Assembly: GCF_000708715.2 (NCBI RefSeq)
Contig: NZ_JENB01000011.1
Location: forward strand, 62,001-126,000
Length of the DNA stretch: 64,000 nucleotides
From: Pseudomonas putida W15Oct28
GTDB taxonomy: Bacteria; Pseudomonadota; Gammaproteobacteria; Pseudomonadales; Pseudomonadaceae
Reading direction: 5' to 3'
Of this stretch, positions 445 to 36,786 are shown piece after piece. The position numbers were made by a program, and so were the translations under genes. The notes under the pieces were generated by a model. It searched no databases and was not told the origin of the DNA. It was given only the letters and a program-made list of their open reading frames with translations. Every line of letters starts with the position of its first letter. Within the stretch, counting starts at the first letter, position 1.

Positions 445-1395
445 CTAGAGGGCGAACGGCAGGTGCAAAGCCACTTGCTGGCGCTGGGCCAGGCGCACTT
501 CGAACTCGCTCGGGTCGTGGATCATCACATCCATCCCGGCAAACGATTCGGCCGCGATCAGGCGCGACAGCCAGAAGCGTACGCAACCTACCCGCAACAT
601 TTCCGGCCACAACTCGGCTTCGGCTGCAGTGAACGGCCGCAGCGCCGCATAGGCCGCCAGCAGTGCCTGGGCACGCGGTACATCCACGGCGCCCTTCTCA
701 TCCAGGCACCAGTCGTTCACGGTGATGGCGATGTCATACAGCATCGGCCCGGAGCAGGCGTTGTAGAAGTCGATCACACCGGTCAGGTGGGTGCCTTCGA
801 ACATCACGTTGTCGCGGAACAGGTCGGCATGCAGGTTGGCCCGTGGCAACGCCAGAATCTGCGCCTTGTGCGCGGTGATTTCATCCAGCGCCGGCTGCAG
901 CAGTGCGGCTTGCTCGGCAGTCAGGCGCGGCAACAGCTCGGCACCGGAGGCCAGCATCCAGTCCAGGCCACGGTCGGTGCGGCGCTCGATGATGTGCTCG
1001 CGGGTGGCCAGGTGAATGTGTGCCAGCAGCTCGCCGACCTGCGCGCAGTGCTGGTTGTTCGGCACCTTGATGTGCTTGCCCGACAGCCGTGGCTGCAGCA
1101 GCGCCGGCTTGCCGCACAACTCGCGCAGGCCATTGCCGTCGCGGTCACGAATGGCATAGGGCACCGGCATGTCGGCGTCGTGCAGAGTGTCGAGCAGTTC
1201 GATGAAGAACGGCATGTCCTCGCTGGGCCCGCGCTCGATCAGCGTCAGGACGAACTCCCCCTGTTCGAGGCTGACGAAGAAATTGCTGTTCTCGGTGCCG
1301 GCGGCAATGCCCTGGAAGTCGAGCAGACGGCCCAGCTCGTACGGCGCCAGAAAGGTTTCCAGCTCAGGCCGGGTCACGGGGGTGAAGACTGACAT
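445..1395 (-). CDS. thrB: Homoserine kinase ThrB (choline-kinase fold)
   Basis: This 316-residue cytoplasmic enzyme phosphorylates homoserine to O-phosphohomoserine in threonine synthesis. It is the aminoglycoside-phosphotransferase-like ThrB of pseudomonads, not the GHMP-type enzyme of enterics. The catalytic HxDxxxxN loop is at residues 189-196 (HADLFRDN) and the metal-binding Asp lies in VIDF at 207-210. The length matches the family. The gene reads in the same direction as the DUF2782 gene 69 bases upstream, with a strong hairpin between them, so the two are probably co-transcribed. An ATG start is used. Confidence 0.93.
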   Translation of the reverse strand: MSVFTPVTRPELETFLAPYELGRLLDFQGIAAGTENSNFFVSLEQGEFVLTLIERGPSEDMPFFIELLDTLHDADMPVPYAIRDRDGNGLRELCGKPALLQPRLSGKHIKVPNNQHCAQVGELLAHIHLATREHIIERRTDRGLDWMLASGAELLPRLTAEQAALLQPALDEITAHKAQILALPRANLHADLFRDNVMFEGTHLTGVIDFYNACSGPMLYDIAITVNDWCLDEKGAVDVPRAQALLAAYAALRPFTAAEAELWPEMLRVGCVRFWLSRLIAAESFAGMDVMIHDPSEFEVRLAQRQQVALHLPFAL

Positions 1396-1415
1396 GATGA
1401 AAAATTGCCCATACG

Positions 1416-1437
1416 GGCACTTCCGCCGGGAAGTGCC
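1416..1437 (-). other. Intercistronic hairpin upstream of thrB
   Basis: GGCACTTCC (1416-1424) and GGAAGTGCC (1429-1437) form a perfect 9-bp stem with a 4-base loop in the 69-base gap between the DUF2782 stop and the thrB ATG. A shorter GCCC-ATAC-GGGC dyad adjoins it. There is no U-tract, so it is more likely a processing or translational control element than a terminator. Confidence 0.5.
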
Positions 1438-1464
1438 GGGTTGATGTGAACGGTGCGCGTCAGA

Positions 1465-1752
1465 TTACCACTCGAAGATCTTCCAGGACGGAATCAGCAT
1501 GTCCGGCTGGTCGGATCGAATGAAATTGGCATCAGTGCCATCAGCGCGTACCAGAAAATAAGGCTTGCCGTTTTTCGGCGTGATCTTGATCGCATACAGG
1601 AACCCGTTCTGGCGGTACTCCTGGATGGTTTTGTCGCCTTCCGTGCGAATGGTCACCTCGGGATCGGCCGAGGGGGCGTCGTCCGCCGCCAGGGTGACGA
1701 CAGGCGTGGTTGCCAATAGGCCGAGCAGTAACAGGCGATTGAGTGTACGCAT
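1465..1752 (-). CDS. DUF2782 small secreted protein
   Basis: This 95-residue protein has an N-terminal signal peptide ([16 protein letters not shown], predicted to be cut after LAA near residue 23) and a compact domain with [19 protein letters not shown] typical of DUF2782. Its role is unknown. It lies between polA (divergent, 75 bases from its start) and thrB (same strand, downstream), an arrangement kept in many pseudomonads. It probably acts in the periplasm. No catalytic motif is visible. Confidence 0.85.
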
Positions 1753-1827
1753 GATAACCTAGTCCCTTTGTCGTCAATGATTCTGGCTATTCTAGCGCCG
1801 GACCCGTCGAAAAGGTTGATTCTGCTC

Positions 1828-4575
1828 ATGAGCCAAGCCCCCCTCGTCCTGGTGGACGGTTCCTCCTACCTGTACCGCGCCTTTCACGCATTGCCGCCGC
1901 TGACCACGTCCAAGGGCATGCCGACCGGTGCGGTGAAGGGTGTGTTGAACATGCTCAAGAGCCTGCGCAAACAGTACCCCGACAGCCTGTTCGCGGTGGT
2001 GTTCGACGCCAAGGGCGGCACCTTCCGCGATGCCATGTTCGCCGAGTACAAGGCCAACCGCCCAAGCATGCCTGACGACCTGCGGGTGCAGGTCGAGCCG
2101 CTGCACGCCAGCGTGAGGGCGCTGGGCTACCCGCTGCTGTGCGTCGAGGGTGTCGAGGCCGACGACGTCATCGGCACCCTGGCGCGCAGCGCTGCTGCCC
2201 AGGGCCGCCCGGTGATCATCTCGACCGGTGACAAAGACATGGCTCAGTTGGTGGACGGGCACATTACCTTGGTCAACACCATGACCGGTAGCGTACTGGA
2301 CGTGGCTGGCGTGCATGAGAAATTTGGCGTCGGCCCGGAACACATCATCGACTTCCTGGCCCTGATGGGCGACAAGGTCGACAACATCCCCGGCGTGCCG
2401 GGCGTGGGCGAAAAAACCGCCGTGGGCCTGCTGACCGGTATCGGCGGCGGCCTCAGCGATCTGTACGCGAACCTGGACAAGGTCCCGACACTGGCCATTC
2501 GTGGCGCCAAGACCTTGCCGGCCAAGCTTGAGGAACACCGCGACGCGGCGTTCCTTTCCTACGAGCTGGCCACCATCAAGGTCGATGTACCGCTGGACGT
2601 TGAAGTGGATGCGCTGGTGTGCGGTGAACCTGACCGCGAAGCGCTGCAGGCGCTGTACACCGAGATGGAGTTCAAGAGCTGGGTTGCCGATGTGCAGCGC
2701 GACGCTGCAAGGGCAGGTACTGAGGTTGCGCCGGTCGCAGAGCCGGCGGCCAAGGTCGAGCCGCAGTACGAAACCATTCTGGACCAGGCCCGTTTCGACG
2801 CATGGCTTGAAAAGCTGCGCCAGGCGCCGCTGTTCGCTTTCGATACCGAAACCACCGGCCTGGATGCCCAGAAGGCGCAGCTGGTGGGCCTGTCTTTCGC
2901 TGTCGCGCCCCATGAGGCGGCTTATGTGCCGTTGGCGCACGACTATGAAGGCGCGCCCGCCCAGCTGGACCGCGAGGCCGTATTGCTGGCCCTGAAACCG
3001 CTGCTCGAAGACCCGGCCAAGGCCAAGGTCGGGCAGAACGCCAAGTACGACATCAACATCCTCGCCAACGGCTCGCCCGCCATCGAAATGCGCGGCGTGG
3101 CCTACGACACCATGCTCGAGTCGTACGTGCTGAACTCCACTGCCACACGTCACGACATGGACAGCCTGGCGCAGAAGTACCTCGACCACACCACCATCGC
3201 CTTCGAGGACATCGCCGGCAAGGGCGCCAAGCAGCTGACCTTCAACCAGATCCACCTGGACAAGGCCGGCCCCTACGCTGCCGAAGACGCCGACATCACC
3301 CTGCGCCTGCACCAAACGCTGCAAGGTCGCCTGGCACAGACGCCGAGCGTGCAGCCGGTGCTGATGGACATCGAGATGCCGCTGGTGCCGGTGCTGGCCA
3401 AGATCGAGCGCCAGGGTGCGCTGGTCGATGCCGCACTGCTGCACGTGCAGAGCGGTGAGCTGGGCGTGAAGATGGCCGAGCTGGAGCTACGTGCCTACGA
3501 GCTGGCCGGTGAAGAATTCAACCTTGGCTCGCCCAAGCAGCTGGGGTCGATCCTGTACGACAAGCTGGGCATGCCGGTGTTGAGCAAGACCGCCAAGGGC
3601 CAGCCGTCCACCGCCGAAGCCGTACTCGACGAGCTGGCCTTGCTCGGCTATCCACTGCCTGAGGTACTGATGCAGTACCGCAGCCTGAGCAAGCTCAAGA
3701 GCACCTACACCGACAAGCTGCCGGGCCAGATCAACCCGCGCACCGGGCGAATCCACACCTCGTACCAGCAGGCTGTGGCAGCCACCGGCCGGTTGTCATC
3801 CAGCGACCCGAACCTGCAGAACATCCCGATCCGCACCGCCGAAGGCCGGCGTATCCGCCAGGCGTTCATTGCCAGCCCGGGCTACAAGCTGCTGGCGGCG
3901 GACTACTCGCAGATCGAGCTGCGCATCATGGCCCACCTGGCCAAGGACGAAGGCCTGCTGCACGCCTTCCGCAACGACCTCGACGTGCACCGGGCCACGG
4001 CGGCGGAAGTGTTCGGTGTGGCCCTGCAAGATGTCACAACCGACCAGCGCCGCAAGGCCAAGGCCATCAACTTCGGCCTGATCTACGGCATGAGTGCCTT
4101 TGGCCTGGCCAAGCAGATCGGCGTCGACCGCAAGCAGTCGCAGGATTACATCGACCGCTACTTCGCCCGCTACCCGGGCGTACTGGCCTACATGGAGCGC
4201 ACCCGCGCCCAGGCCGCCGAGCAAGGCTTTGTCGAAACCCTGTTCGGCCGCCGCCTGTACCTGCCGGACATCAACGCCAAGAACCCGGCCTTGCGCAAAG
4301 GCGCCGAGCGCACGGCGATCAACGCGCCGATGCAGGGTACTGCCGCCGATATCATCAAGCGGGCCATGGTCAATGTGGATAACTGGCTGAGCGAGAGCGG
4401 GCTGGATGCCCGGGTGATCCTGCAGGTACACGACGAACTGGTCCTGGAGGTGCGTGAGGACCTGGTTCAGCAGGTGAAAGATGAAATTCGCCAGCACATG
4501 AGCCAGGCCGCAGAACTGGATGTGCCGCTGCTGGTGGAGGCAGGAATTGGCGCGAATTGGGACGAAGCTCACTGA
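1828..4575 (+). CDS. polA: DNA polymerase I
   Basis: This 915-residue polymerase fills gaps and removes RNA primers in repair and lagging-strand synthesis. The N-terminal 5'-3' exonuclease domain spans about residues 1-290 ([34 protein letters not shown]). The 3'-5' proofreading domain begins with intact acidic residues D339 and E341 (FDTETTGLD). The polymerase domain carries motif A (DYSQIELR, D692), motif B ([14 protein letters not shown]) and motif C ([11 protein letters not shown]869). All three activities should be functional. The ATG at 1828 fits the family N-terminus ([13 protein letters not shown]); an in-frame upstream ATG at 1768 would add 20 atypical residues. The ErsA-type sRNA gene follows. 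Confidence 0.97.
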
Positions 4576-6965: not shown

Positions 6966-7598
6966 ATGCGTAAACTGATTCTCAGCGCCGCGCTGGTCGC
7001 TGCCAGCGTATTCGGTATGACTGCCGTCCAGGCCGCCGAGCCTGTTGCTGGCAAGGAATACCTCGAGCTGAGCAACCCTGTTCCGGTTTCCGTGCCTGGC
7101 AAGATCGAAGTGGTCGAGCTGTTCTGGTACGGCTGCCCACATTGCTACCACTTCGAGCCGGTCATCAACCCGTGGGCTGAAAAGCTGCCCGCTGACGTCA
7201 ACTTCAAACGTGTTCCTGCCATGTTCGGTGGCCCATGGGACGCACACGGCCAGATGTTCCTGACCCTCGAAGCCATGGGCGTCGAGCACAAGGTGCATGC
7301 TGCCGTCTTCGACGCCATCCAGAACCAGAAAAAGCGCCTGACCGACCCGCAGGACATGGCCGACTTCCTCGCCACCCAGGGTGTGGACAAGGACAAGTTC
7401 CTTGCCACCTTCAACTCGTTCGCCATCAAGGGCCAGGTCAACCAGGCGAAGGAACTGGCGAAGAAGTACGAAATCACCGGCGTACCGAGCATGGTGGTGA
7501 ACGGCAAGTACCGCTTCGACCTGAGCACCGCTGGCGGGCCGGAAGGCGTGCTGAACGTCGCCGACCAGCTGATCGCCAAGGAGCGCGCCGCCAAGTAG
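6966..7598 (+). CDS. dsbA: Thiol:disulfide interchange protein DsbA
   Basis: This 210-residue periplasmic oxidoreductase introduces disulfides into exported proteins. It has a signal peptide ending VQAA near residue 24, the active site CPHC at 57-60 within ELFWYGCPHCYHF, and the cis-proline loop TGVPSMVV near residue 174. Length and motifs are canonical. It heads a probable operon with the endonuclease/phosphatase gene (12-base gap) and the diguanylate cyclase. The ATG is preceded by AGGAGTAAAGC, a good ribosome-binding site. Confidence 0.96.
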   Translation: MRKLILSAALVAASVFGMTAVQAAEPVAGKEYLELSNPVPVSVPGKIEVVELFWYGCPHCYHFEPVINPWAEKLPADVNFKRVPAMFGGPWDAHGQMFLTLEAMGVEHKVHAAVFDAIQNQKKRLTDPQDMADFLATQGVDKDKFLATFNSFAIKGQVNQAKELAKKYEITGVPSMVVNGKYRFDLSTAGGPEGVLNVADQLIAKERAAK

Positions 7599-7610
7599 GC
7601 GGCGTAACCC

Positions 7611-8465
7611 ATGCCCCGCTTCAGAACCACGCGTGGCATTGGCCTGCACCAGCCGCAGGTCAACGAGCATCACCTGCAGGCTTCTGGCCTGCCCGAGGAT
7701 GGTCGACTGCGGCTGCTCAGCTTCAACATTCAGGTCGGCATCAGCACCGAGCGCTACCGGCATTACCTGACCCGCAGCTGGCAGCACTTGCTGCCGCATA
7801 ACGGGCGTGCCGGCAACCTGCAGAAAATCGGTGATTTGCTGGGCGACTTCGACCTGGTGGCCTTGCAGGAAGCCGATGGTGGCAGCCTGCGCTCAGGTTA
7901 TGTCAACCAGGTCGAGCACCTGGCTCAGCTGGGGGCCTTCCCTTACTGGTACCAGCAACTCAACCGCAACCTCGGGCGTTTCGCCCAGCACAGCAATGGC
8001 GTGCTCAGCCGCCTGAAGCCACATTCGCTCGAAGACCACCCGCTGCCCGGCCCGGCCGGCCGTGGGGCGATCCTGGTGCGTTTTGGTGAAGGCGAAGATG
8101 CGCTGATCGTGGTGATGATGCACCTGGCACTCGGCGCCAAGACCCGCGCCCTGCAACTGGGCTACATCCGCGAGCTGATTGGTGGTTACCGCCACCAGGT
8201 GCTGATGGGCGACATGAATACCCATGCCACCGACCTGCTGGAGCACTCGCCGCTGCGCGATCTGGGCCTTATCGCCCCGCAAGTCGAAGCGACTTTCCCC
8301 AGCTGGCGCCCCCAGCGTTGCCTGGACCATATCCTGCTCAGCCCAAGCCTCACGCTTGAGCGTGTCGAGGTGTTGGCGCGGCCAATTTCCGACCACCTTC
8401 CCGTTGCTGTCGAGATTCGATTGCCTGATGCATTGACTGTGGATACGCTGCCGGTCTTGAGCTAA
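7611..8465 (+). CDS. Endonuclease/exonuclease/phosphatase family protein
   Basis: This 284-residue protein has the metal-dependent EEP (DNase I/ExoIII/sphingomyelinase) fold. The signature residues are visible: LSFNIQ, LQEAD, MMHLALG, GDMNT and SDHLP. It has no signal peptide or membrane segment, so it is probably cytosolic. The substrate (nucleic acid, phospholipid or inositol phosphate) cannot be told from sequence. The gene follows dsbA by 12 bases and is followed by the diguanylate cyclase, as in P. aeruginosa. Confidence 0.85.
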   Translation: MPRFRTTRGIGLHQPQVNEHHLQASGLPEDGRLRLLSFNIQVGISTERYRHYLTRSWQHLLPHNGRAGNLQKIGDLLGDFDLVALQEADGGSLRSGYVNQVEHLAQLGAFPYWYQQLNRNLGRFAQHSNGVLSRLKPHSLEDHPLPGPAGRGAILVRFGEGEDALIVVMMHLALGAKTRALQLGYIRELIGGYRHQVLMGDMNTHATDLLEHSPLRDLGLIAPQVEATFPSWRPQRCLDHILLSPSLTLERVEVLARPISDHLPVAVEIRLPDALTVDTLPVLS

Positions 8466-8492
8466 TTGCCATCACCGTTTGCGGACCCGGGC

Positions 8493-10418
8493 ATGACTGA
8501 AGACGCTGAGCGCTGGAAAGAAAAATACCTTAAAAGCATCGAGCAGCAAGAAAAGCTCGAACGCCGCTGGGACGCCCGTCTCGACCTGCTGCGTCGCGGC
8601 CTGGTGCGCAGCACCCTGGCTGCCGAAGGCAGTGACAAGGTGGTGGACGCGTGCATGAAGGAGATGCGCGAGGTTATCCGCAGCGACAACATGGACGCTG
8701 GCCTCGCCGGGTTGATTCCGCGCCTTGAAAAAGCGGTGCTGGACTCCGAACAGCGCCGGGAAACCCGCATGAACCAGGTCAGCGATGCGCTGACCGCGCT
8801 GGTTGGCCAGCTGCAAGGCCTGCCGCTGCCCAACGATATCTCGCGGCCGCTGAAAAAGCTGGCGAAAAAACTCGATGGTGGCGTTGCCCAGTCCCGCGAC
8901 CTGCCGCCGCTGCTGGGCGAGCTGAGCGGCTTGCAGGGCCTTGCATTGTCGGCCCTCGGCAAACCGGGGGACGAAGCCCGGCCCGGCTTTTTGCAACGCC
9001 TGTTCGGCAGCCGCGAGGATGAGCCACAAAGCGAGCCCGCGCCCGCGCCGGCAGCTGTGCCTGCTGCTGAGGCGCCCCCGGCTGCACAGCGCAGTATCGA
9101 AGCCCCCCAGCCAGACGATGTGGATGCGCTGCAACCGCTTTCAGCCTCTACCGCCGAAACGACGGTAGCGCCCGAACCTGAGCTGGAGGTGTCTGGGCCG
9201 GCGTTGATCGAAACAATTGAAACCCCGGCCGCTCAGCCACTGCCACAGGAAGAAGCGCCCGAGCCGGAAGCGGCCGTCAGCGAACCCTTGGCAGCAGTAC
9301 AGCCCGCACAAACGCTTGAAGAAACCTTCGGCGAAGACGGCCCCTATGCCCTGCCCTACGCGGTAGAGCCGCCCTACAGCCAGGTTGCTGCGCACATCGA
9401 GAAGACCCTGCTCGGCCTGCTCGATGACCTGAGCCTGCCCGAGCGGCACAAGGCCCAGGCGCTGGAAATGCGCGAGCGCGTTGCCCGTGGCCTGAACTGG
9501 TATGAGCTGATCCCGGTGCTGGATGACCTCGCCGTGCTCATGCTGGCGATCACCGACAGTGGCCAGCACGAGTTCGAAACCTACCTGCAGCAACTCAATG
9601 AGCGCCTCGAAGGTTTCCAGAGCCACCTGCACGAGGCGAGCGCCGGCCATGCCGACAACAGCTCCGCTGCTCGCGAACTGGATACCCAGTTGCGCGAGCA
9701 TGTCGATGGGTTGCAAAACAGTGTGCAGGGCGCCGCCGACGTCGACAGCCTCAAGCACATCCTGGACAACCGCCTGGAAGGCCTGCTGATCACCATGGAC
9801 GAGCACAAGCACGAGCGGGATCGCCGCGAGCAAGAGCTGGCGGGGCGCCTGCAAGGCCTGTCCGAACGGGTGGCGAACATGGAGCACGAGGCGCTCGGTT
9901 ATCGCGAGCACCTGGAAGAGCAGCGGCAGAAAGCCCTGCTCGACCCCCTCACCGGCCTGCCCAACCGTGCGGCCTGGAGCGAGCGGGTCGAGCGCGAAAT
10001 AATCGAATGGCAAGAAAACGGCGGCCATCTGGCCATGGCGATCCTCGACCTGGACCACTTCAAGCGCATCAACGACAGTTATGGGCATCTGGCCGGGGAC
10101 AAGGTACTGAAGATTGTCGCCGACCAGTTGCGCAAGCGCCTGCGCGGCCGTGACTTCATCGCCCGTTTCGGCGGCGAGGAGTTCGTCCTGCTGCTGCCGC
10201 AGACGTCGCCGGCAGCCGCTGCCCAGGTGGCGGAAGCAATGCGGGCCACGGTGGAAGCCTGCCCGTTCCACTTCAAGGGTGAGCGGGTGGTGATCACCAC
10301 CTCCATCGGCCTGGGTGCGTTCCGCTCCGGCGAGCGCGGCGACCAGGTGCTCAAGCGCGCCGATGCGGCGCTGTACCGGGCCAAGGAGCTGGGGCGCAAC
10401 CGCGTCGAGCAGAACTAG
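8493..10418 (+). CDS. Diguanylate cyclase, DgcH-like
   Basis: This 641-residue protein is predicted to make c-di-GMP. The N-terminus (about 1-150) is helical and charged, followed by a low-complexity Pro/Ala/Glu linker (about 180-280), a second helical and coiled-coil region (about 310-480) and a C-terminal GGDEF domain. The active-site motif is GGEEF at 560-564. An RxxD product-inhibition site (RGRD) lies five residues before it, so feedback control is expected. There is no transmembrane segment. The position after dsbA matches P. aeruginosa PA5487 (DgcH). ATG 8493 is preferred over an upstream TTG at 8466, although neither has a strong ribosome-binding site. Confidence 0.88.
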   Translation: MTEDAERWKEKYLKSIEQQEKLERRWDARLDLLRRGLVRSTLAAEGSDKVVDACMKEMREVIRSDNMDAGLAGLIPRLEKAVLDSEQRRETRMNQVSDALTALVGQLQGLPLPNDISRPLKKLAKKLDGGVAQSRDLPPLLGELSGLQGLALSALGKPGDEARPGFLQRLFGSREDEPQSEPAPAPAAVPAAEAPPAAQRSIEAPQPDDVDALQPLSASTAETTVAPEPELEVSGPALIETIETPAAQPLPQEEAPEPEAAVSEPLAAVQPAQTLEETFGEDGPYALPYAVEPPYSQVAAHIEKTLLGLLDDLSLPERHKAQALEMRERVARGLNWYELIPVLDDLAVLMLAITDSGQHEFETYLQQLNERLEGFQSHLHEASAGHADNSSAARELDTQLREHVDGLQNSVQGAADVDSLKHILDNRLEGLLITMDEHKHERDRREQELAGRLQGLSERVANMEHEALGYREHLEEQRQKALLDPLTGLPNRAAWSERVEREIIEWQENGGHLAMAILDLDHFKRINDSYGHLAGDKVLKIVADQLRKRLRGRDFIARFGGEEFVLLLPQTSPAAAAQVAEAMRATVEACPFHFKGERVVITTSIGLGAFRSGERGDQVLKRADAALYRAKELGRNRVEQN

Positions 10419-33145: not shown

Positions 33146-33254
33146 CTGTACCGGCCCTTTCGCGGGTGAACCCGCTCCCACAGGATTACCGCAGTCTCAG
33201 GAAATGCGAAGTCCCTGTGGGAGCGGGTTTACCCGCGAAGAGGCCGGCACAGGC
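33146..33254. repeat. REP inverted pair
   Basis: CTGTACCGGCCCTTTCGCGG.. and ..CGCGAAGAGGCCGGCACAGG lie between the convergent GFA and DUF4105 genes. Confidence 0.88.
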
Positions 33255-33258
33255 AACA

Positions 33259-35214
33259 TCACAATTGCAGGCCACCGGCAGCTTTATGCAGCGCCCGCAA
33301 ATGCTCGCCGATCTGCTTCACATTGGCCTCGACCGCGGCAATTTCCTTGGCCCGTGATGGCTCCAGCAGCGCCCTCACCTCTTTGTCCAGGCTGGTGCTC
33401 AAGCGCAACAGCTGCGCCTGGCGTTCGCTGCTCACCTGCTCAAGGTGCTTGCGCTCTTCGGGTTGCGGCAGCCCGTAGCCCTTGGCATCGAGCAACTCTG
33501 CCGGGCGGCTGAGGAAACCGCTGTTGGCGAGCATCTGCTTGAGGGTTGCGTCAGCTTTGTTGATGCTGCCATCTTTCAGCGCCGCAGCATTCAGGTAACG
33601 CTGCTTGACCTCGTCCTGGGCCAGCAGCAGTTGCCGGCGCAAGCTGGCCTGTTCCAGTAGCAGCAACGCAGCGCTGGTGCGCAGGTCGGCCTTGGCGAAC
33701 CAGGGGCGGCGCTGTTCGGCATCCTGGGCCAGCCAGTCTTCAACCAGGGTTTGCTTGATCGGCAGCTGTTTCCTCAGTACCTCGAACATGGCCTGGTAGC
33801 GGTCGCGGTAGGAGTCGAAACGGTAGCCCAGGCGCAACGCCTCGCGCGGGTCGTCGAGCACGCTGGTGTCGGCCAGCCCCCTGCCCTTGAGCACGGCCAG
33901 CAAGCCGTTGGGCATGATGCTGTCGAGGTCGTTCAGGCGTGGGTTGGCGGTGCCGCTGCGCAGCAGTTTCAATGACTCCACCGCACAGTTGTTGGACAGG
34001 AACCAATAGTTGCCGTCATAGCCCCAGTGCATCTCGGCGGCCTGACGCACCAGGTTCTCGACTTCATCGCGGTTGAGCTTCAAGGGTACCGAGGCCAAGC
34101 TACGCAGTTCGGTCTTGGTGTATTCATCGATCACCTGGCCCAGCGGCAGTACGAACAAGCGCGAGGGGTAGACACCAATCAGGCCGTCCCAGCTGGACAG
34201 CTGCACGTCGTTGACGAAGGCGCGGTACGACAGCACCAGGCTCTGGTCGAGGTCCAGGCGGCAGTCCGGCCCGCGTGGGCGGCCGGGCTTGCAGATCACC
34301 AGGCGCAGCATGCTGTGGCCCCAGCGGCTGACCAGGTTCTGGTTGGCTTCGGCCAGCAGGTAATCCACTTCATACACCCGCTCGGGGTCGATTTCACCCA
34401 GCGGCTGGCGGGCGAAGTCGCTGCCCGCGTTGATGAACGGCAGGCCCTTGGCGCAGGTGTCCTGCTGGGGTGCCCAGCCGAAGTGCTCGCGCAGGTACTG
34501 GTTCAGCGCCGGGCGGCGGCAGCCGTAGCTCGGGTCGAGGAGGAAGTACTCCATGTTGACCGCGATGTACTCCTTGGGGCTGCTCAGCTCATAGCTGTCT
34601 GGGCTGCGCACGAACTGGCCATTCTGCTGTTCGCGCTCGCCGCGTCGGCCCACGTACTGCTGCCAGCCGGCCAGGTCGAGCAGGCGCGGGTCGTCGCTGA
34701 GGGTGAAGCGGCGCTCGGCCTGGCCGCGGCATTCTTCGGGCAGGCCAATCTTGCCCAGCGTGCCTTGCTGGCGCTTGCAGCGGGCAATCAGCGAGCTTTC
34801 GGCACCGGGCCACAGTCGGGCACGGTCGTAGATATGGGTGAGCTCGTGCAACACGGTGGCCAGCAGCTCTTCACGCACCGTGCCGTGTGGGCGGTTGGTG
34901 CGCTCGCTGGCGGCGCTGCCATCGGTGAGGCTGGGCAGCAGGCGACGGTTGAGTTCGAGGGTGGACACCAGTGATGCCTGGCCGTAGGCGTCGGCAGGCA
35001 TGTTGTCGCTCCAGCTGACCCGTACGCGACGGTCCAACTGTTGCTTGAAGCGCGCAGGCAGCTTGCCCATGGCCTCGTCGAGCAGGGCTTGGGTGGCCTG
35101 GGTTTGTTGTGGGTCGAGGCCGGATGCCTGCAGCTCAAGCTGCAGGTCGGCCAATGCGGGTGTGCCGAGCAGCGTCAGGACGCAGCCGAGCAGCCAGGCA
35201 CGCATGCGGTTCAC
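33259..35214 (-). CDS. DUF4105 protein with HEXXH domain (uncharacterised periplasmic enzyme)
   Basis: This 651-residue exported protein has a signal peptide ending TPALA (about residue 22). An N-terminal half carries a zinc-protease-like HELTH at 123-127 (ATVLHELTHIYD), and a DUF4105 domain at about 275-440 has a candidate catalytic pair H300 (WGHSML) and C410 (SNNCAVESL). A helical C-terminal region (about 480-651) follows. DUF4105 is the domain of the Bacteroides lipoprotein acyltransferase Lnb, which uses a thiol-type active site. Here there is no transmembrane anchor beyond the signal. The GTG start overlaps the stop of a DUF2388 gene (GTGA), so the two are coupled; an ATG nine bases later is the alternative. 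The function is unknown. Confidence 0.82.
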   Translation of the reverse strand: MNRMRAWLLGCVLTLLGTPALADLQLELQASGLDPQQTQATQALLDEAMGKLPARFKQQLDRRVRVSWSDNMPADAYGQASLVSTLELNRRLLPSLTDGSAASERTNRPHGTVREELLATVLHELTHIYDRARLWPGAESSLIARCKRQQGTLGKIGLPEECRGQAERRFTLSDDPRLLDLAGWQQYVGRRGEREQQNGQFVRSPDSYELSSPKEYIAVNMEYFLLDPSYGCRRPALNQYLREHFGWAPQQDTCAKGLPFINAGSDFARQPLGEIDPERVYEVDYLLAEANQNLVSRWGHSMLRLVICKPGRPRGPDCRLDLDQSLVLSYRAFVNDVQLSSWDGLIGVYPSRLFVLPLGQVIDEYTKTELRSLASVPLKLNRDEVENLVRQAAEMHWGYDGNYWFLSNNCAVESLKLLRSGTANPRLNDLDSIMPNGLLAVLKGRGLADTSVLDDPREALRLGYRFDSYRDRYQAMFEVLRKQLPIKQTLVEDWLAQDAEQRRPWFAKADLRTSAALLLLEQASLRRQLLLAQDEVKQRYLNAAALKDGSINKADATLKQMLANSGFLSRPAELLDAKGYGLPQPEERKHLEQVSSERQAQLLRLSTSLDKEVRALLEPSRAKEIAAVEANVKQIGEHLRALHKAAGGLQL

Positions 35215-35531
35215 AGTGCGAGGATGGCTTCGGCCAGTACCTGGTCGCTGGCGCCGCGTGCTTCTGGCACGCGCTCGCGCAGGGTGCTGAAGGCGGCCTC
35301 GAGCTGGGCACCGCGGATGTCGCCATTGCTGGCGACGAAGCTGGCGGCATCGTCGTGGGCTTCGCGCACCACTTTGGAGTCGCGAATCGAGGTGGTGGTG
35401 TCAGAGGTGAAGTCGATCGAGCGGCCAAAGGCACGCACGATGATGTTGCTGGTGGCCACCAGAGTATGTGCCTGGGCCAGGTCGGCCAGCAGCAGCATGC
35501 CGAGGGTAGCGGCAATCAGCGGTTTACGCAT
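35211..35531 (-). CDS. DUF2388 small secreted protein, copy 1
   Basis: This 106-residue protein has a signal peptide (cut near LAQA, residue 21) and the family core DDAASFVASNGDIRGAQLEAAF, ending LAEAILAL. The function is unknown; there is no lipobox, so it is free in the periplasm or secreted. It is the closest of the three copies to the DUF4105 gene and overlaps its start by four bases. It shares the DDAA.FV.S.G.IRG..LE pattern with the two genes upstream, the mark of tandem duplication. Confidence 0.85.
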   Translation of the reverse strand: MRKPLIAATLGMLLLADLAQAHTLVATSNIIVRAFGRSIDFTSDTTTSIRDSKVVREAHDDAASFVASNGDIRGAQLEAAFSTLRERVPEARGASDQVLAEAILAL

Positions 35532-35567
35532 GGAGCATCTCCGAAAAATACAGGGAGTCAGATGTGT

Positions 35568-35861
35568 TTATTGGACGAGAATTGCCTGCACCAGTTCCAG
35601 GTCGCCGACGGCGTGCTGCGAACAATTGTGGCGTAATGATTCCAGCGCGGCTTCCAGCCGCACGCCGCGGATCTGGCCGTCGCTGGCAACGAAGGCAGCT
35701 GCATCGTCGCGCGCCTGGCGAACCAGCTTGCGATCAAACGGTGCAGTGGTGACCTGGCTGGTGACATAGCCGGTGATGACCAGGCTTTGCGTGGTGGTAT
35801 CCATGGCATGGGCACTGGCCATGCCGGCAACGGAGAACAGCAGCGGCAACAGATAACGCAT
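35568..35861 (-). CDS. DUF2388 small secreted protein, copy 2
   Basis: This 97-residue paralogue is the most diverged: the core reads DDAAAFVASDGQIRGVRLEAAL and the C-terminus is LVQAILVQ. It has a signal peptide ending SAHA (about residue 17) and a single Cys in the mature part. The start at 35861 (MRYLLPLLFSVAG) gives a normal signal peptide; the frame is open a further 33 bases. It lies 36 bases upstream of copy 1, so it is probably in the same transcript. Confidence 0.8.
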   Translation of the reverse strand: MRYLLPLLFSVAGMASAHAMDTTTQSLVITGYVTSQVTTAPFDRKLVRQARDDAAAFVASDGQIRGVRLEAALESLRHNCSQHAVGDLELVQAILVQ

Positions 35862-35949
35862 GGGCTCTACAACGGCTGGGAACGTGGGCGGCAAAGGTGG
35901 GTGCGGCTGTGCTGGGGGGGACCAGCACAGCTGAACGGCTCAGCCGGGC

Positions 35950-36267
35950 TCAGAGCGCCAGGATGGCCTGGGCCAGTTGCGCGTCGCTGGCCTGCAGGGC
36001 CGGCATCTGCGAGCGGATGTGCAGGAACGCGCTTTCCAGTTTGGCACCGCGGATGTCGCCTTGGCTGCCAACGAAGCTGGCGGCGTCGTCACGGGCGGCC
36101 TGCACGATCTTGTCGTCTTTGAAGGACGAGGAGATATCGGAAGTGGCATCGGTGGATGCGGCCACTGCGCCAACGACGGCGTCGGTGGTGACAACGAAGC
36201 TGGTGGCGTGTGCGGTGCCGGCCAGGCTCAGCATCAGGGCGGCGCCAATCAGGTATTTACGGGACAT
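35950..36267 (-). CDS. DUF2388 small secreted protein, copy 3
   Basis: This 105-residue paralogue heads the presumed operon. It has a signal peptide ending AHA (about residue 21), the core DDAASFVGSQGDIRGAKLESAF and the C-terminus DAQLAQAILAL. The ribosome-binding site is weak (CCAGGAGTTCACC, close to the ATG). The region upstream carries two AACTGTAC boxes exactly 30 bases apart that recur upstream of the DUF1127 gene. Confidence 0.83.
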   Translation of the reverse strand: MSRKYLIGAALMLSLAGTAHATSFVVTTDAVVGAVAASTDATSDISSSFKDDKIVQAARDDAASFVGSQGDIRGAKLESAFLHIRSQMPALQASDAQLAQAILAL

Positions 36268-36420: not shown

Positions 36421-36460
36421 AACTGTACTGGCTATATTCAAAGCCGTTAAAACTGTACCT
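36421..36460. promoter_or_regulatory. Paired AACTGTAC boxes upstream of the DUF2388 operon
   Basis: AACTGTACTGG starts at 36421 and AACTGTACC at 36451, a 30-base spacing (three helical turns), about 155-190 bases upstream of DUF2388 copy 3. The same 11-mer AACTGTACTGG recurs at 36940. The boxes probably mark an operator for an unknown regulator. The rest of the 300-base gap (36268-36570) contains no gene. Confidence 0.5.
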
Positions 36461-36499: not shown

Positions 36500-36531
36500 A
36501 AAAACCCGTCGCAGTCACCTGCAACGGGTTT
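36500..36531 (-). terminator. Terminator of the DUF1127 gene
   Basis: On the minus strand ACCCGTTGCAG..CTGCGACGGGT is followed by TTTTTT, 40 bases after the stop. Confidence 0.9.
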
Positions 36532-36570
36532 CGGAATTCGCGGTGCCGGCCGAAGCCGGCAAGCCGGAGC

Positions 36571-36786
36571 TTAGCGCCAGAAAGGCTTGCTCAGCTCTTC
36601 GTAACGCTGCGACTCGCTGATACCGGCGTCAGCCAGCAGACGGCCGTCCAGGCGAGCCAGTTGACGGCGGCTGGCCATGCGGCGCTGCCACAGCAGCAGG
36701 GTCGACAGTGCGCGCAGCGGCAGCGAGGCGTTGGATTGCTGGGCGTTGCTTTCAAAAACCAGACCGGAACTGAGGGTACGTTCCAT
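36571..36786 (-). CDS. DUF1127 small protein
   Basis: This 71-residue protein has a C-terminal DUF1127 motif (LLLWQRRMASRRQLARLDGRLLADAGISESQRYEELSKPFW). Short DUF1127 proteins are highly basic, and some affect phosphate or carbon metabolism by binding RNA; the role here is not known. It has its own terminator and a 400-base upstream region packed with ACTGT/ACAGT motifs. The ribosome-binding site GGAAGGATGAAGC precedes the ATG. Confidence 0.87.
   Translation of the reverse strand: MERTLSSGLVFESNAQQSNASLPLRALSTLLLWQRRMASRRQLARLDGRLLADAGISESQRYEELSKPFWR

Follow-up and report, generated by a model that had tools for sequence, protein, structure and literature searches.

Enzymes with an Lnb_N domain (PF13387, formerly DUF4105) are known from Bacteroides: in its available text, PMC12994826 presents DUF4105 as the Bacteroides N-acyltransferase, reports three genomic contexts in which Lnt has displaced it and counts lipid-targeting effectors among permuted NlpC/P60 relatives, and the accessible part of PMC10318531 lists DUF4105 among papain-like families. 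Here we analyse a locus at positions 33,259 to 36,267 of a window of 64,000 nucleotides from Pseudomonas putida W15Oct28 (the whole stretch under study; contig NZ_JENB01000011.1, positions 62,001 to 126,000), in which three genes for small exported DUF2388 proteins are followed by the gene for an exported enzyme with a DUF7844 and an Lnb_N domain. The locus thus represents a variant of the Lnb_N enzymes in which a zinc-peptidase-like domain is added and small exported proteins are dedicated to the enzyme. DUF2388 and DUF7844 are Pfam families of unknown function, yet in the Pseudomonas family their genes form a very steady exported pair (127 of 128 loci). The genes are kept and lost together; therefore, enzyme and DUF2388 proteins very likely constitute one unexplored cell-envelope system, and viewing them as such offers a first role to test for each family. 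Our search by family and locus names, which covers part of the literature, found no description of a DUF2388/DUF7844-Lnb_N system.

The window enzyme shares with Lnb of Bacteroides the Lnb_N domain of 160 residues, with an invariant His ahead of an invariant Cys as in permuted NlpC/P60 proteins. Unlike Lnb, it lacks a membrane anchor, has a zinc-peptidase-like domain at its N-terminus and a helical part at its C-terminus, is paired with DUF2388 and belongs to a host that has Lnt. MtfA (Mlc titration factor A), of peptidase family M90, is located in the cytosol. The likeness to MtfA consists of HExxH and a downstream Glu segment (PAECFAVLSEYF versus PKEYIAVNMEYF) in a significant profile match, whereas the window domain stays under the M90 cut-off, is exported and is fused to Lnb_N. 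In the exosortase and rhombosortase systems one processing enzyme serves many exported substrates, and both are co-distributed among genomes. One enzyme with several exported proteins and co-distribution among genomes recur at our locus, but the DUF2388 sequences that we read have no C-terminal membrane anchor, the enzyme chemistry is another, and processing of DUF2388 is our proposal.

The unit consists of four genes, all on the minus strand:

33259..35214, minus strand: DUF7844/Lnb_N enzyme gene, 651 residues, exported, GTG start (open reading frame (ORF) calls and Pfam; signal peptide read from the sequence)
35211..35531, minus strand: DUF2388 copy 1, 106 residues, exported, overlapping the enzyme start by four bases (ORF and Pfam/NCBIfam)
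35568..35861, minus strand: DUF2388 copy 2, 97 residues, exported, ATG start (Pfam/NCBIfam)
35950..36267, minus strand: DUF2388 copy 3, 105 residues, exported, first gene of the unit (ORF and Pfam/NCBIfam)

The order is thus copy 3, copy 2, copy 1 and then the enzyme gene; for copy 2 an alternative longer frame has a TTG start at 35894. A preliminary description of this DNA, made from the letters alone, had proposed a 651-residue exported protein preceded by three tandem DUF2388 genes, copy 1 overlapping it by four bases. The reading frames bear out the enzyme's frame and length, the overlap and the three small genes, whose products all pass Pfam DUF2388 (PF09498, 101.1-109.6 bits, cut-off 25; NCBIfam TIGR02448, 107.9-135 bits, cut-off 53.85).

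Joint occurrence of the enzyme and DUF2388 genes

We searched a sample of 148 Pseudomonadaceae genomes with profiles of DUF7844 and DUF2388. DUF7844 was found in 128 genomes and DUF2388 in 129: both families occurred in 128, neither in 19, and DUF2388 alone in one. This sole exception, G226, is 78% complete and has a single unlinked DUF2388 gene and no DUF7844. Within genera g100, g104 and g111 together, 26 genomes had both families, 12 had neither and none had only one; genus g105 had two genomes with both, one with neither (70% complete) and G226. The Fisher test of joint presence and absence treats genomes without regard to kinship.

At the level of the locus, 127 of the 128 genomes had one to three same-strand DUF2388 genes directly upstream of the DUF7844 gene (three in 59 loci, two in 42 and one in 26); the remaining locus (L235) is cut by a contig end. 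The gap between the enzyme gene and the nearest DUF2388 gene ranged from -13 to 109 bases, with an overlap of one or four bases in 62 loci. A second set of 80 named loci comprised the closest 80 of 273 relatives found, two labelled Pantoea sp. and the rest Pseudomonas. DUF2388 adjoined the enzyme in all of these best 80, overlapping by four bases in 78 and by one base in two; one further comparison took in 66 of the 80.

The preliminary description had named co-conservation of the DUF2388 and DUF4105 genes across pseudomonads as a point on which its idea of a coupled system would stand or fall, to be checked by profile search and gene-neighbourhood analysis. Both families were confirmed and their neighbourhood is kept across the Pseudomonadaceae, with joint presence and absence in all but one incomplete genome; the coupling is stronger than first supposed. 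Since the arrangement is kept across this family and the motif residues of the enzyme are invariant, it is beyond chance, and we hold with high confidence that enzyme and DUF2388 proteins are one functional unit.

The two families differ in number. The enzyme domain had one match per genome in 127 of 128 genomes, the other (G286) having a second below the cut-off, whereas DUF2388 matches numbered one to eight per genome, with eight in two sampled genomes. The window genome has five DUF2388 copies, two of them unlinked and with no enzyme within the 9 kb fetched around each.

DUF7844 was less frequent in the broader samples. Eight of 194 genomes of the order had it, every one from the window's own family, as did seven of 274 genomes of the class, five above the cut-off; DUF2388 was found in 14 of 200 genomes of the phylum, 11 above the cut-off. 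DUF2388 and enzyme are again adjacent in G344, G496 and G678, which belong to another family of this class and have enzymes 44-46% identical to that of the window, and the more distant relative G343 (26% identical) keeps both active sites. For the weak DUF7844 matches in G421 and G398, no full-length relative was present within the stretch fetched. The three DUF2388 matches below the cut-off in the phylum sample were weak (G629, G705 and G710), and a local DUF2388 model found nothing in the G705 region. The E. coli control gave a match below the cut-off in the DUF7844 searches, presumably MtfA.

Domains and predicted active sites of the enzyme

The enzyme divides into two recognised domains and a helical C-terminal region:

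34453..35142, minus strand: DUF7844 (PF25226) domain, MtfA/M90-like, residues 25-254 (Pfam 385.8 bits; MtfA PDB profile match; zincin rows for residues 22-130)
34834..34848, minus strand: HELTH, residues 123-127, predicted zinc site (H123, E124 and H127 identical in 215/215 rows)
34549..34572, minus strand: segment EYIAVNME, E215-E222 (E215 aligned with the MtfA glutamate; predicted third zinc ligand)
33922..34401, minus strand: Lnb_N (PF13387) domain, residues 272-431 (Pfam 89.4 bits, cut-off 22.2)
34315..34323, minus strand: WGH, residues 298-300, candidate catalytic H300 (identical in 215/215 rows)
33985..33993, minus strand: NNC, residues 408-410, candidate catalytic C410 (N409 and C410 identical in 215/215 rows)
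33262..33897, minus strand: C-terminal helical region, residues 440-651 (helices in a low-to-medium-confidence model)

The preliminary description had placed a HELTH motif at 123-127, as in zinc proteases, and a DUF4105 domain with candidate catalytic residues at the ends of WGH (H300) and NNC (C410). Each of these elements was recovered at its position, and HELTH sits in a domain related to a zinc peptidase (see below). That domain, DUF7844, was missing from the earlier account and was found by Pfam, its model being covered whole (positions 1-230 of 230) above the cut-off; residues 440-651 had no family match above the Pfam cut-off. H123, E124, H127, E215, E222, H300, N409 and C410 were invariant in all 215 aligned rows at identities down to 26%, and both predicted active sites were also identical in 27 of 27 diverse sequences. 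From the 215-row alignment 12 fragment or repeat loci had been dropped (L002, L041-L043, L046-L049 and L051-L054); it retains at least three repeated loci (L030/L071, L031/L066 and L064/L238), and its row L235 is truncated.

We searched the PDB with a profile of the 27 diverse DUF7844 domains and obtained MtfA (9srw_E, E=8.1e-6; 3dl1_A, E=4.2e-5) as the sole solved protein below E=1. The significance of this match comes from its Glu half, while the HExxH half is aligned with 1.1 bits only. M90 was matched by 26 of the 27 members and SprT-like by 14 (E≤1), and the window enzyme stays below the Pfam M90 cut-off of 26.2 bits (13.4 bits for the whole protein, 16.8 for the DUF7844 domain). Because the MtfA profile match is significant and the M90 cut-off is missed, DUF7844 is, judged by its sequence, a distant relative of peptidase family M90 outside the family proper.

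The full-length AlphaFold2 model had a mean predicted local distance difference test (pLDDT) score of 55, with ten-residue means of 61-94 for residues 21-170, 33-46 for residues 181-240 and 22-56 in the Lnb_N part, leaving the surroundings of E215 and the Lnb_N domain unmodelled. This poor result can be ascribed to a shallow input alignment, whose members are 75-95% identical to the window protein. The well-modelled residues 22-130 matched zincin catalytic domains (IRAP, Z 8.1; ERAP2, Z 7.6; aminopeptidase N; leukotriene A4 hydrolase) with Z scores of 5.8-8.1, a range that according to the tool needs care. When the PDB was searched with a profile built from the Lnb_N alignment, a single match (E=1.7) resulted, which we took as chance.

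C232/C254 and C308/C318 were present in every aligned row and C146/C162 were either jointly present (211 rows) or jointly absent (four rows); the three pairs behave like disulphides, which fits an oxidising compartment. Past the signal peptide no 19-residue stretch has a Kyte-Doolittle mean above 1.32, in keeping with the earlier statement that the protein has no membrane anchor. We also considered the enzyme as a lipoprotein, its C11 standing in a lipobox-like LLGC, and dropped the idea, as this column holds Cys in only 56 of 215 rows.

The Lnb_N search matched the Bacteroides control, as expected. Lnt had been predicted for this host and was found full-length in the window genome (G000:C24:17933-19105; 325.4 bits, cut-off 132.9); the window enzyme is therefore not standing in for Lnt.

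Small exported partners of Lnb_N enzymes

The mature DUF2388 proteins have approximately 75-85 residues: a Ser/Thr-rich start, then DDAASFVAS.G.IRGA.LE as the core and, at the C-terminus, AIL, identical across 59 of 59 sequences of one alignment. As the preliminary description held, the window copies have no lipobox, there being no cysteine close to their signal peptides. A profile search found no solved relative below E=0.6, and the structure model reached a pLDDT of 52. In locus L074 (G312), a 471-residue open frame 3' of the enzyme gene (7188-8603) contains a DUF2388-like stretch (local E=5.6e-15).

Unlinked paralogues in the window genome (L061, 4193-4675) and in G226, of another genus (L266, 1492-1797), adjoin apparent glycine-cleavage genes, which we named by recognition (presumably gcvP in G226). 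This paralogue may be an old, separately kept gene. For another DUF2388 gene, PP_3743 of P. putida KT2440, PMC6034422 reports an expression of 335 units in an alr mutant, up from 70.

A parallel to the locus exists in the window genome itself. A second Lnb_N gene, 36 kb beyond the window (G000:C11:161362-163000 region, L239), encodes a DUF7843-Lnb_N-DUF7840 protein (1150-3000) and follows a DUF3015 gene (588-1073) whose small product is exported. Like our locus, such pairs have a small exported protein gene directly upstream of an Lnb_N enzyme, and in two sampled genomes the small gene occurs in tandem copies; unlike it, the L239 enzyme has DUF7843 and DUF7840 instead of DUF7844. Homology between DUF3015 and DUF2388 was undetectable, and a common origin of the two is unsupported (hhalign probability 0.3%). 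The window enzyme, with DUF2388 genes upstream, is not itself a DUF3015-type pair.

Among 143 genomes sampled from the class, Lnb_N was present in 35 and DUF3015 in 25, all of which also had Lnb_N. Among 32 DUF3015 matches, 27 were on the same strand as an Lnb_N domain and no more than 1.3 kb upstream of it, two were downstream and three elsewhere; conversely, 25 of 45 Lnb_N matches had DUF3015 within 1.3 kb upstream. Three of the other 20, in G000, G344 and G343, are loci with DUF2388 or a DUF2388-like gene. For the remaining 17 we examined 16 regions, leaving out the second match of G365. Phmmer recognised the enzyme in 12 of the 16; in L275 (G414:C1:2001000-2008500), where two same-strand Lnb_N matches (2002343 and 2004952) lie 2.1 kb apart, it picked the neighbouring DUF3015-type enzyme. 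L269 has a neighbour that plausibly encodes a small exported protein of a different type, and for many Lnb_N genes no small exported partner was seen in the regions examined. The strongest hint of a tie between the small protein and Lnb_N activity is that two small exported families, apparently unrelated, accompany one enzyme domain. The DUF3015/Lnb_N pairs suggest that Lnb_N enzymes often have a small exported protein of their own as substrate or partner.

We favour the view that the DUF2388 proteins are the enzyme's dedicated substrates, cut and/or modified in the periplasm, because one enzyme gene stands against one to eight DUF2388 genes per genome; we put the probability of this reading at roughly 0.45. 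The varying number of small proteins and the gene order, small proteins and then enzyme, likewise speak for a processing enzyme. It would combine an MtfA-like zinc peptidase domain with an Lnb_N domain of the permuted NlpC/P60, papain-like type, a kind able to move acyl chains. The DUF2388 proteins would be exported via their signal peptides, bound by the enzyme through their conserved core, and then cleaved at the zinc site, modified at the Cys-His site, or both. We infer the periplasmic location, the activity of both sites and the role of DUF2388 as substrate rather than regulator or cofactor; acyl transfer by the Lnb_N domain is suggested by analogy with Lnb. In a more specific version, which we consider unlikely, the zinc domain would trim DUF2388 and the Lnb_N domain would then acylate either the end so formed or a side chain, so that exported proteins without a lipobox cysteine would become lipid-modified. 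Were this true, lipids would be attached by a route other than the Lgt-Lsp-Lnt pathway, with the DUF3015/Lnb_N pairs as its second branch, and small-protein acylation by Lnb_N would be a general envelope pathway of Gammaproteobacteria.

Several observations weigh against substrates as the role of DUF2388, or against the data behind it. Conservation in DUF2388 lies in the core and the C-terminal AIL with no obvious cleavage site, which would suit a binding protein equally well, and the copies distant from the enzyme might do other work. Three of the seven g111 genomes that lack the pair are only 76-85% complete, and joint loss can come from one deletion event in genomes whose only DUF2388 copy adjoins the enzyme gene, as in members of g100 and g111. 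G343 had no Pfam DUF2388 match; the 103-residue exported frame directly upstream of its enzyme is weakly DUF2388-like (local E=0.028), a likeness that is no more than suggestive. Moreover, MtfA was absent among the 50 structure-comparison rows listed for residues 22-130, where the zincin Z scores lie in the range calling for caution, and Foldseek returned nothing at E≤0.001 with the enzyme model.

Alternatively, the DUF2388 proteins could be regulators of the enzyme, such as inhibitors, pro-domain-like caps or chaperones, that restrain the peptidase until it is at its site, the true substrate being another envelope component. That the partner comes first, with a stop/start overlap at 62 of 127 loci, would suit a protein that has to be ready when the enzyme appears, the conserved core could serve for binding, and 26 of 128 loci have a single DUF2388 gene; up to eight DUF2388 genes in a one-enzyme genome, some of them unlinked, exceed what an inhibitor would require, and overlapping genes are also frequent for substrates and subunits. 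We regard such regulation as possible but less likely. If instead the proteins were merely co-expressed stress or nutrient-response genes with no physical or catalytic relation, the conserved repeat upstream of the unit (see below) and the approximately five-fold rise of the unlinked PP_3743 in the racemase mutant (PMC6034422, available part) would be accounted for. Mere co-expression is highly improbable, given that the genes adjoin each other in 127 of 128 loci and again in a second bacterial family and are jointly absent in several genera.

Two further explanations concern the chemistry of the Lnb_N domain. It might, like Lnb, acylate lipoproteins or further molecules of the envelope, forming a second system next to Lnt in which DUF2388 is an accessory; its 89.4 bits, its invariant His and Cys and the reported displacement of DUF4105 by Lnt (PMC12994826, available text) would agree with this, but the enzyme has no membrane anchor, the genome encodes a full-length Lnt and the window DUF2388 proteins lack a lipobox, so that we give it little credence. 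It might also be an NlpC/P60-type hydrolase or peptidase of cell wall or lipid, for which DUF2388 would be a substrate-binding or targeting subunit. The lipid-targeting effectors among its permuted relatives (PMC12994826, available text) and the weak SprT-likeness of the zinc domain in 14 of 27 members point that way; with no wall-binding domain among the Pfam matches and no solved DUF2388 relative below E=0.6, a hydrolase of this type seems similarly improbable.

Control region and flanks

The DUF2388/enzyme unit probably has its own control region, with two features upstream of copy 3:

36421..36458, minus strand: two exact GTACAGTT direct repeats (36421-36428 and 36451-36458), their starts 30 bases apart, in front of the unit; may be an operator
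36501..36532, minus strand: terminator-like hairpin between a DUF1127 gene and the unit (hairpin scan; visible in most of 21 aligned sequences)

Upstream of the unit, a GTACAGTT-type pair, defined as two copies with at most one mismatch each and 26-36 apart, was present at 48 of 209 loci, compared with a mean of 0.02 in 50 shuffles. Of these loci, 44 belong to the 80 named ones and four to the 129 others; the pair was not found upstream of six unlinked DUF2388 genes. The terminator scan of the region, with two sites against 5.0 in shuffles, is weak by itself; as this count is below that of the shuffles, support for the hairpin comes from its retention in most of the 21 aligned sequences. A sigma-70 scan found no promoter-like site (0 versus 1.2 in shuffles).

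The DUF1127 gene lies upstream of the unit at 36571-36786, and the gap beyond it extends to 37189. A chromatin immunoprecipitation (ChIP) peak of CbrB is listed for PP0153 in the accessible part of PMC6296734. PP0153 may be either the DUF2388 or the DUF1127 gene; the KT2440 gene order points to DUF1127, and the peak may belong to that gene rather than to DUF2388. A strict sigma-54 pattern was not found upstream of the unit in six sequences, nor was the looser TGG-N10-GC upstream of the window DUF1127 gene; CbrB control of the unit was set aside.

Just 3' of the enzyme gene, positions 33156-33245 hold an inverted-repeat-like sequence (cgggtgaacccgctcccacagg ... cctgtgggagcgggtttacccgcg), which resembles a P. 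putida REP pair.

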